The position numbers were made by a program, and so were the translations under genes. Positions 2,219 through 3,943 of a stretch of DNA of 39,326 nt are shown piece after piece. The notes under the pieces are model-generated. The model was not told the DNA's origin and ran no database searches. It worked only from the letters and a program-made list of their open reading frames with translations. The stretch is from NCBI GenBank assembly GCA_018657475.1, contig JABHXC010000011.1, positions 1-39,326 on the forward strand. Direction: 5' to 3'. Every line of letters begins with the position of its first letter. The first letter of the stretch is position 1. This DNA is from Candidatus Woesearchaeota archaeon (GTDB lineage: Archaea > Nanobdellota > Nanobdellia > Woesearchaeales > GW2011-AR9).

Positions 2219-3304
2219 ATGAAAATTGCAATTATTGGAGCTGGACCTGTTGGGTGTTATACTGGTTATTTATTGGCTAAGCAAGGTTATTCGGTTAAAA
2301 TTTATGAGAATCATTCTTCTGTTGGTTCGCCAATTCAATGTACTGGGTTACTTACTAAAGATTTTGATAAATTAGGTTTGTCTAAGAAAGATTTTTTAGT
2401 AAATACTTTTGAAAAAGTTACAGTTTATTCTCCAAATGGAAAAGTGACTATCCCTCAAAAAGAATATTTAGTCTGTAGAACTAAATTTGATAAGTATTTT
2501 GCAAAATTAGCTTTAAATAATGGAGTAGTGATAAAAGTAAATCATACTTTTATTGGGCGTTCTGGAAAAACATTACGGATAAAAAACGCATTACAAAATA
2601 AAATAATTGAAGTAACTCCGGATATTGTTATTGGGGCTGATGGACCTTTATCCCCTGTTGCGAAAGCATTTAGTTTTTATCATCCTAAAAGAAAGAACTA
2701 TTTTGGTATTCAAGCTTTAGTTAAAGGAAAATTTGATCCTAAATTTTTTTCTGCTTATTTTAGTAAAGATATTTGTTCTGACTTATTCGCATGGATTGTT
2801 CCTGAATCAATCTCTACAGCCCGTGTAGGTTTAGCAATGTACAAAGATTCAAAGAAATATTTTGATAAGTTTATGGCTGAGAATGGATTTAAATCTAAAG
2901 AAATTCAAGGTGGAACTATTCCTTTATACTGCCCTCAGCAAAAATTACAAAAAGATAATTGTTATTTAGTTGGGGATGCAGCAACATTTGTTAAAGCGAC
3001 AACTCTTGGTGGATTAATTCCTGGTTTATGGCAGGCAAGAGTTTTAGCTGATTGCATTAAATATGGGAAAGATTATCAGAAATCTTGTCGCCCCTTAGCA
3101 AGACGATTACATTTACATCTTTGGATCAAAAGAATTTTTGATAATTTTTCAGATAAAAATTGGAACAAATTAGTTAAGTATGTCTCTCAACCTAGAGTTC
3201 AGAAATCATTTAAAAAGTATACCAGGGATAACCCATTACCTTTAGTAATTTCTGTGTTATTACGAGAACCAAGATTGTTATGGTTTGGAAGAAGATTATT
3301 TTGA
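2219..3304 (+). CDS. FAD-dependent geranylgeranyl reductase family protein
   Basis: IAIIGAGPVGCYTGYLLAKQG Rossmann motif, SPIQCTGLL, VIGADGPLSPVAK, YLVGDAATFVKATTLGGLIPG. Confidence 0.85.
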   Translation: MKIAIIGAGPVGCYTGYLLAKQGYSVKIYENHSSVGSPIQCTGLLTKDFDKLGLSKKDFLVNTFEKVTVYSPNGKVTIPQKEYLVCRTKFDKYFAKLALNNGVVIKVNHTFIGRSGKTLRIKNALQNKIIEVTPDIVIGADGPLSPVAKAFSFYHPKRKNYFGIQALVKGKFDPKFFSAYFSKDICSDLFAWIVPESISTARVGLAMYKDSKKYFDKFMAENGFKSKEIQGGTIPLYCPQQKLQKDNCYLVGDAATFVKATTLGGLIPGLWQARVLADCIKYGKDYQKSCRPLARRLHLHLWIKRIFDNFSDKNWNKLVKYVSQPRVQKSFKKYTRDNPLPLVISVLLREPRLLWFGRRLF

Positions 3305-3305
3305 A

Positions 3306-3444
3306 AAGGCTCTGTTGAAAATCTTTAATAATTGTTTTGTATTAGGGCACGGCACTTCCTACAAGATAAATTAAATTTATCTTGTGTGCCTCGTCTTCGA
3401 CAGGGCGCTAATACAAAAAGAGAAAATGGTTTCTACAGAGCCTT
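3306..3444. repeat. 139-nt nested inverted-repeat element / possible structured RNA
   Basis: Paired arms: AAGGCTCTGT 3306-3315 with ACAGAGCCTT 3435-3444; TTTTGTATTAG 3335-3345 with CTAATACAAAA 3408-3418; GGCAC 3351-3355 with GTGCC 3386-3390; ACAAGATAAATT 3361-3372 with AATTTATCTTGT 3374-3385. Confidence 0.85.
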
Positions 3445-3487
3445 CTGGAAAGAAAACTTTTAATATGATGGCTGTTCTTTGCTTTTC

Positions 3488-3943
3488 ATGTCAGTTTGTG
3501 AGATGTGTGGGAAAGATACTTCGTTATTAACTGCTACTATTGAATCTGTGGAAATGCAAGTATGTAACTCTTGTGCTCGTTATGGGAAAGTTAAGAAAGA
3601 AATTGTTACTCGTTCTTTTATTAGAAAAAAGAATCAAACAAAACTAGATCCAAATGAGGAGCAAGAAGTTATTGGGAATTTTTCAGTTATTATTCGGCAA
3701 GAGAGAGAAAAAAGAAAGCTTAGCCAAGAAGAATTTGCACGATTTCTAAATGAAAGGGAAACAATTGTTGCAAAATGGGAAGCTGGAGTTTTAAGACCTT
3801 CTTTAGCTGTAGCGAGAAGATTACAGCGTAAATTGAAAGTGAGAATTGTTATTGCTTCTTCTGGTTCTGATGAAATGGTTATAAAAAAGACACCTACTAT
3901 TGCCACATTAGGTGATATGGTCAAGATAAGAAAACGAAGATAA
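3488..3943 (+). CDS. MBF1-like transcription factor (N-terminal zinc ribbon plus HTH_3)
   Basis: CEMCGKDT...CNSCARYGK zinc ribbon; IRQEREKRKLSQEEFARFLNERETIVAKWEAGVLRPSLAVARRLQRKL HTH. Met at 3488 gives the MBF1-like start. Confidence 0.85.
   Translation: MSVCEMCGKDTSLLTATIESVEMQVCNSCARYGKVKKEIVTRSFIRKKNQTKLDPNEEQEVIGNFSVIIRQEREKRKLSQEEFARFLNERETIVAKWEAGVLRPSLAVARRLQRKLKVRIVIASSGSDEMVIKKTPTIATLGDMVKIRKRR

Follow-up and report, generated by a model that had tools for sequence, protein, structure and literature searches.

MITEs derived from IS5-family elements are known from archaea (PMC3852290; see also the review PMC10969869). Among bacteria, the Mutator-like DDE elements TnGBS, ISLre2 and ISKra4 integrate at sigma-A promoters, with TnGBS inserting 15 to 17 bp upstream (PMC3942029). 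REP elements are extragenic palindromes of 20 to 40 bp that carry a tag at one end and occur in many copies (PMC3733652). The palindrome considered here lies in the window, that is, the whole stretch of 39,326 nucleotides analysed (contig JABHXC010000011.1 of a Candidatus Woesearchaeota archaeon); an archaeal origin can also be inferred from its genes and promoters. Taking the evidence as a whole, we are fairly sure that the best explanation is a MITE that is moved by an IS5 transposase, inserts close to promoters and contains a core working as folded DNA.

The original prediction described four nested complementary arm pairs between a geranylgeranyl reductase gene and an MBF1 gene, and all four are present. 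They consist of the outermost pair AAGGCTCTGT/ACAGAGCCTT (3306-3315/3435-3444, read from the sequence), a second pair TTTTGTATTAG/CTAATACAAAA (3335-3345/3408-3418, plus strand), which is stem P1 and shows covarying pairs, a third pair GGCAC/GTGCC (3351-3355/3386-3390), which is stem P2a, and a fourth pair ACAAGATAAATT/AATTTATCTTGT (3361-3372/3374-3385), which forms the arms of P2b. The outer limits had to be redrawn: the outermost pair is real, but its terminal AA/TT are flanking bases, and the element proper measures 135 bp (window positions 3308-3442). The GAAA/TTTC continuation of the outer arm also exists, but it is the inner part of a terminal inverted repeat. This repeat is 13 bp long and matches at 12 of 13 positions between the left end, GGCTCTGTTGAAA (3308-3320, plus strand), which also matches the end of the autonomous IS L377, and the right end, GGCTCTGTAGAAA (3430-3442, minus-strand reading). 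No ORF of 60 aa or more is found in this short element.

The element is flanked by a decayed 9-bp target-site duplication, with the left copy TTTTGAAAA (3299-3307) differing at 2 of 9 positions from the right copy TTCTGGAAA (3443-3451); the chance probability of at least 7/9 matches is 0.0026. The stop codon TGA (3302-3304) of the upstream geranylgeranyl reductase-like gene (2219-3304, plus strand; FAD_binding_3 above the Pfam cut-off, GGR_cat below it) lies within the left duplication, which refines the earlier reading of an element starting 2 nt past that codon, since the element proper starts at 3308. Truncation of the reductase by the insertion, through a change of TGG to TGA in the left duplication, could be ruled out, because the reductase stops at roughly the same residue as 14 orthologues and is thus full length. 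On the other side, a TATA-like box, TTTTAATA (3458-3465, plus strand), starts 15 bp beyond the element, and the ATG of an MBF1-like gene (HTH_3; 3488-3943, plus strand) is located 45 bp past the element end. The insertion would appear to have fallen over the reductase stop codon and upstream of the MBF1 promoter, sparing both.

The interior has a defined layout, all of it given here on the plus strand. In particular, the core GCACGGC (3347-3353), near-invariant in alignments, overlaps the 5' arm of P2a (3351-3355), which is followed by a bulge (3356-3360) and by the variable apical hairpin P2b (3361-3385), with 12-bp arms and a 1-nt loop, whose sequence differs widely among copies with its pairing kept. 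The 3' arm of P2a with the conserved GCCTC (3386-3392) precedes a small side hairpin, P3, with the sequence GTC-TTC-GAC (3393-3401; loop GAA on the minus strand) and with arms that alternate among copies between GTC/GAC, GGC/GCC and GAC/GTC, and a conserved AGGGC (3402-3406) completes the layout. As had been noticed, the core is more GC rich than its surroundings, with a G+C content of 48%, compared to 38% for the element and 33% for the window. The single-strand fold of the region reaches -53.2 kcal/mol, against -30.0 +/- 3.2 kcal/mol for shuffled sequences (z = -7.2; 0 of 200 shuffles).

Only one copy occurs within the window, as first observed, but genome-wide the element is multicopy, and the proposed genome search returned copies at unrelated loci: the genome of origin (G000; 1.06 Mb, 81 contigs) contains 5 further near-full copies with 85 to 96% identity, together with a longer, 188-bp subtype having similar ends and a second core nested inside. 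Contigs C1, C4, C13, C14, C47 and C66 of this genome break off in the nested subtype or no more than about 100 bp from it, and the true copy number is therefore probably underestimated. In nested copies (L007, L010, L014, L337, L338, L339, L139 and L322), the second core is placed in opposite orientation in the apical hairpin of the first. A search with the terminal-repeat pattern gave 21 matches, compared to 1 for the reversed pattern. Copies are present in relatives as well, and among the genomes sampled they were found only within one archaeal order: covariance model R1 of the core detected them in 15 of 353 genomes of the order, and the broader model R2, applied to a sample of 371 genomes from throughout the phylum, in 15, each of them a member of that order. 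With fuller scoring, the core model gave 31 hits in G000, 18 in G003, 23 in G014, 22 in G002, 6 in G041, 26 in G039, 16 in G048 and 22 in G055; nested cores were counted separately, and the model E-values are rough. The core was not found in viral contigs, where two specific patterns gave zero matches and a loose pattern yielded many GC-rich chance hits, none fitting the core model.

Some copies depart from the common arrangement. L078 (positions 2290-2406), L160, L161, L126 and L346 have a variant of the core (GTGCCGGCAC ... GTGCCTATTGCAGG) in an unchanged layout, either inside CGCTGTCCAGAAAGTC ends or around a standard core; L082 and L149 have an extra hairpin-forming insert on one side of the outer part; and in G314 the copy L315 overlaps with a predicted ORF of 341 aa, an exception to the intergenic rule.

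A MITE stood first among the identities originally proposed, and it is borne out by the terminal inverted repeats and target duplications, the large number of copies and the existence of an autonomous partner from the IS5 family. Automatic delimiting recovered a terminal repeat with an adjacent 8- to 9-bp duplication in 39 of 119 copies, compared to 7 of 400 mispaired and 1 of 400 shuffled controls. The duplications are exact, of 8 to 9 bp, at most delimited copies; the remaining 80 copies were not delimited automatically, among them the window copy, because its duplication matches at only 7/9. Two complete IS of 990 and 994 bp (L376 and L377), with ends related to those of the MITE, are present in the relatives G003 and G039 and have exact duplications of 9 bp (GGAAAAAAC and CTAAGAACA) on their flanks; among their ends, one reads GGCTCTGTAGAAACCCT, the same as in MITEs. 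The partner transposase belongs to the IS5 family (NF033579 IS5, 143 bits against a cut-off of 140; PF01609, DDE_Tnp_1). In the genome of origin, a truncated relative of its gene is found at the end of contig C33, directly following an adenylate kinase-like gene (named from sequence only), and this IS is cut by the contig end. A second IS5-like transposase in the same genome (L058, on contig C48) scores 106 bits on NF033579, below the cut-off, and has an end, GGTCTGTCCAGAAAGGAATAAAAGTGTATACT, that resembles class-3 MITE ends.

Comparison among relatives also provided an empty site, though at the ileS locus only and not at the window copy's own: a copy is inserted at the ileS promoter of G003, whereas G001 and G002 have this promoter without the element, and their homology sets in at the right duplication or shortly after it. 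In the absence of transposition data, we regard it as probable that IS5-family elements move the MITE in trans. The IS5-family DDE transposase is inferred to bind the terminal repeats and to excise or copy the element, which it would then insert directly in front of a promoter's BRE/TATA region by cutting the target in a staggered fashion. Simple internal deletion of the autonomous IS does not account for the MITE, since no core was found in a search of these IS.

The core layout (GCACGGC, apical hairpin, GCCTC, GGC) recurs within terminal repeats of at least six different types. The end types GGCTCTGTAGAAACCC, GGCTAATATGAAACCC, GGCTTCATCCGGAATAAC and GGTAATGTCAAGTTA surround it with a 9-bp duplication, and GGCGCTGTCCAGAAAGTC and GGTCTTGTCCAGAAAGG, as well as GGCTCTGGCCGGAAAAG, with an 8-bp duplication; the core also occurs between less regular ends. 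Since some ends resemble each other, the count of truly independent end families is uncertain. Copies without IS5-type ends (L364 and L317, also L314 and L357) have an outer stem like TATTTAGTT/AACTAAATA, and apparently longer duplications, of 14 bp (TGATTTCTAAGACA) in L364 and 11 bp (TTCATTCAACC) in L317, hint at another kind of transposase. To our knowledge, one core common to different terminal-repeat families has not been reported among structured bacterial MITEs.

The occurrence of one core within unrelated outer stems of at least six end types, and the nesting of an additional core, in antisense, within the apical hairpin of another, would also be expected if the core were an independent mobile palindrome that inserts at hairpin tips already present, for instance in the centre of a MITE, with the host palindrome supplying the outer stem. 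We consider this unlikely, although it is the alternative that survives best, given that the outer stems can be grouped into a small number of families common to several genera, in agreement with ordinary descent accompanied by covariation, that no empty hairpin was found, and that copies without IS5-type ends can have duplications too (L314 and L357). Returning to a MITE with a core of its own, it is possible to hypothesize, as a tentative extension that we would not yet favor, that the core represents a structured module of an undescribed kind, portable and acting as DNA, through which several different IS5-type transposases can mobilise short elements. It would have spread by exchange of ends, in a lineage with transposons that home to the site of transcription pre-initiation.

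The proposed analysis of homologues for conserved pairing showed that the core stems covary strongly. A plain alignment, comprising 15 copies, shows both bases changed in 15 of 26 pairs; in 46 model-aligned copies, 22 of 26 pairs are double changed (284 double-changed cells, compared to 80 in shuffles); and a further set of 54 distinct rows has such double changes in 22 of 24 pairs. Fitting to the model applies to alignments A3 and A4 but not to A1. An RNA helix should tolerate G-U pairs far more than A-C mismatches, while a DNA structure or palindrome repair should not. G-U pairs account for 11 of 1,044 and 16 of 1,119 standard pairs (1.0 to 1.4%), next to 16 and 22 A-C mismatches; no usable tRNA comparison was available for this frequency, as the control held a single tRNA. 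The orientation of copies relative to co-directional neighbor genes is even (17 versus 18). Thus, strong covariation, almost no G-U pairing and no orientation bias point to a structure kept in DNA rather than in RNA.

These observations bear on the suggestion of a processed structured RNA, according to which the core would be a small RNA or an mRNA element carried by the MITEs as a useful or selfish RNA. Unpaired conserved nucleotides between covarying helices do resemble a structured RNA, and the copies adjoin transcribed genes; however, G-U pairs are no commoner than A-C mismatches, the orientation is random, and no Rfam family reached its gathering score, with nothing credible at permissive E-values either. 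An RNA role is therefore not supported, and we deem it improbable, a little more so than an independently mobile core. A cruciform-forming site, also suggested at the outset, remains possible. Under the preferred reading of a DNA structure, the core may act as folded DNA, either as a hairpin on a displaced strand or as a cruciform, and we infer, without having shown it, that it probably helps the MITEs to be mobilised or maintained. Read from the minus strand, P3 usually has a GNA triloop closed by C-G, which is very stable in DNA; this support for a DNA structure is suggestive only.

Short extragenic palindromes in many copies are also what REP/BIME-type repeats moved by a REP-associated tyrosine (HUH) transposase would look like, but the REP-like label of the original prediction is contradicted by the long terminal inverted repeats and the 8- to 9-bp target duplications, and with a DDE partner as well, we give this origin very little credence. 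A one-off terminator or chance palindrome, which the position at a gene 3' end might suggest, can be set aside almost entirely in view of the fold (z = -7.2), the 31 model hits in the genome and the order-wide distribution; the absence of a second copy and of conserved pairing, which would have reduced the element to a one-off sequence, is refuted by the finding of both.

The MITEs occupy a constant position relative to promoters. A TATA-like box (TTTAWAWA, at least 7/8 matching) starts 12 to 18 bp beyond at least one end in 32 of 36 delimited copies, whereas other 7-bp windows contain one in 2 to 10 of 36. The ends of most of these copies were set automatically, and those of the window copy and a few more by visual inspection; the interval was chosen on the same 36. 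Furthermore, among 20 additional copies fetched before examination, 10 could be delimited, and 9 of these had the box in the 12- to 18-bp interval; this hold-out set is dominated by one end type from G055. Both autonomous IS have the box at +15, start codons peak near +45 from the element, and the fixed spacing is seen for copies with several end types.

Such fixed spacing implies promoter-directed integration, in which promoter-bound factors (TBP/TFB), or the sequence or shape of promoter DNA, may guide the transposase. The spacing could derive in part from the survival of harmless insertions, but the sharp peak at 14 to 15 bp speaks against this. We found no report of promoter-directed integration for archaeal IS5 elements, although it is known for some bacterial transposons, and no relevant paper on archaeal pre-initiation factors and transposons, subscription papers not being covered.

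The copies make up a large and apparently undescribed MITE superfamily of small archaeal genomes; under the same restriction on subscription papers, our literature search brought up no paper that treats MITEs together with DPANN or Woesearchaeota. The internal fold is strongly constrained while the ends change, which is not predicted by the view of MITEs as remnants of deleted IS. The findings also indicate that integration of IS5-family elements in archaea takes place at a set distance upstream of TATA promoters, which parallels the bacterial transposons that target promoters as well as the Ty elements of yeast. Promoter-proximal insertions could rewire genes without breaking them.

Compared to the described systems, the family shares with REP elements the nature of multicopy extragenic palindromes but differs in having terminal inverted repeats and target duplications, and it is similar to ERIC, Correia and other structured bacterial MITEs in consisting of short, intergenic, foldable palindromes (PMC10969869). 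It has in common with TnGBS, ISLre2 and ISKra4 the DDE integration at a fixed distance upstream of promoters; however, different from these p-MULT elements, its target is the archaeal TATA promoter, and its partner transposase is of the IS5 family (DDE_Tnp_1), with best matches to IS5 models, and is not Mutator-like. Archaeal IS5 MITEs are similar to the window family in its length of 135 bp, the lack of an ORF, the many intergenic copies and the match to IS5 over the ends only. The window family differs from them in an interior that is not IS derived, in a covarying core common to several end types, and in its fixed spacing from TATA boxes.
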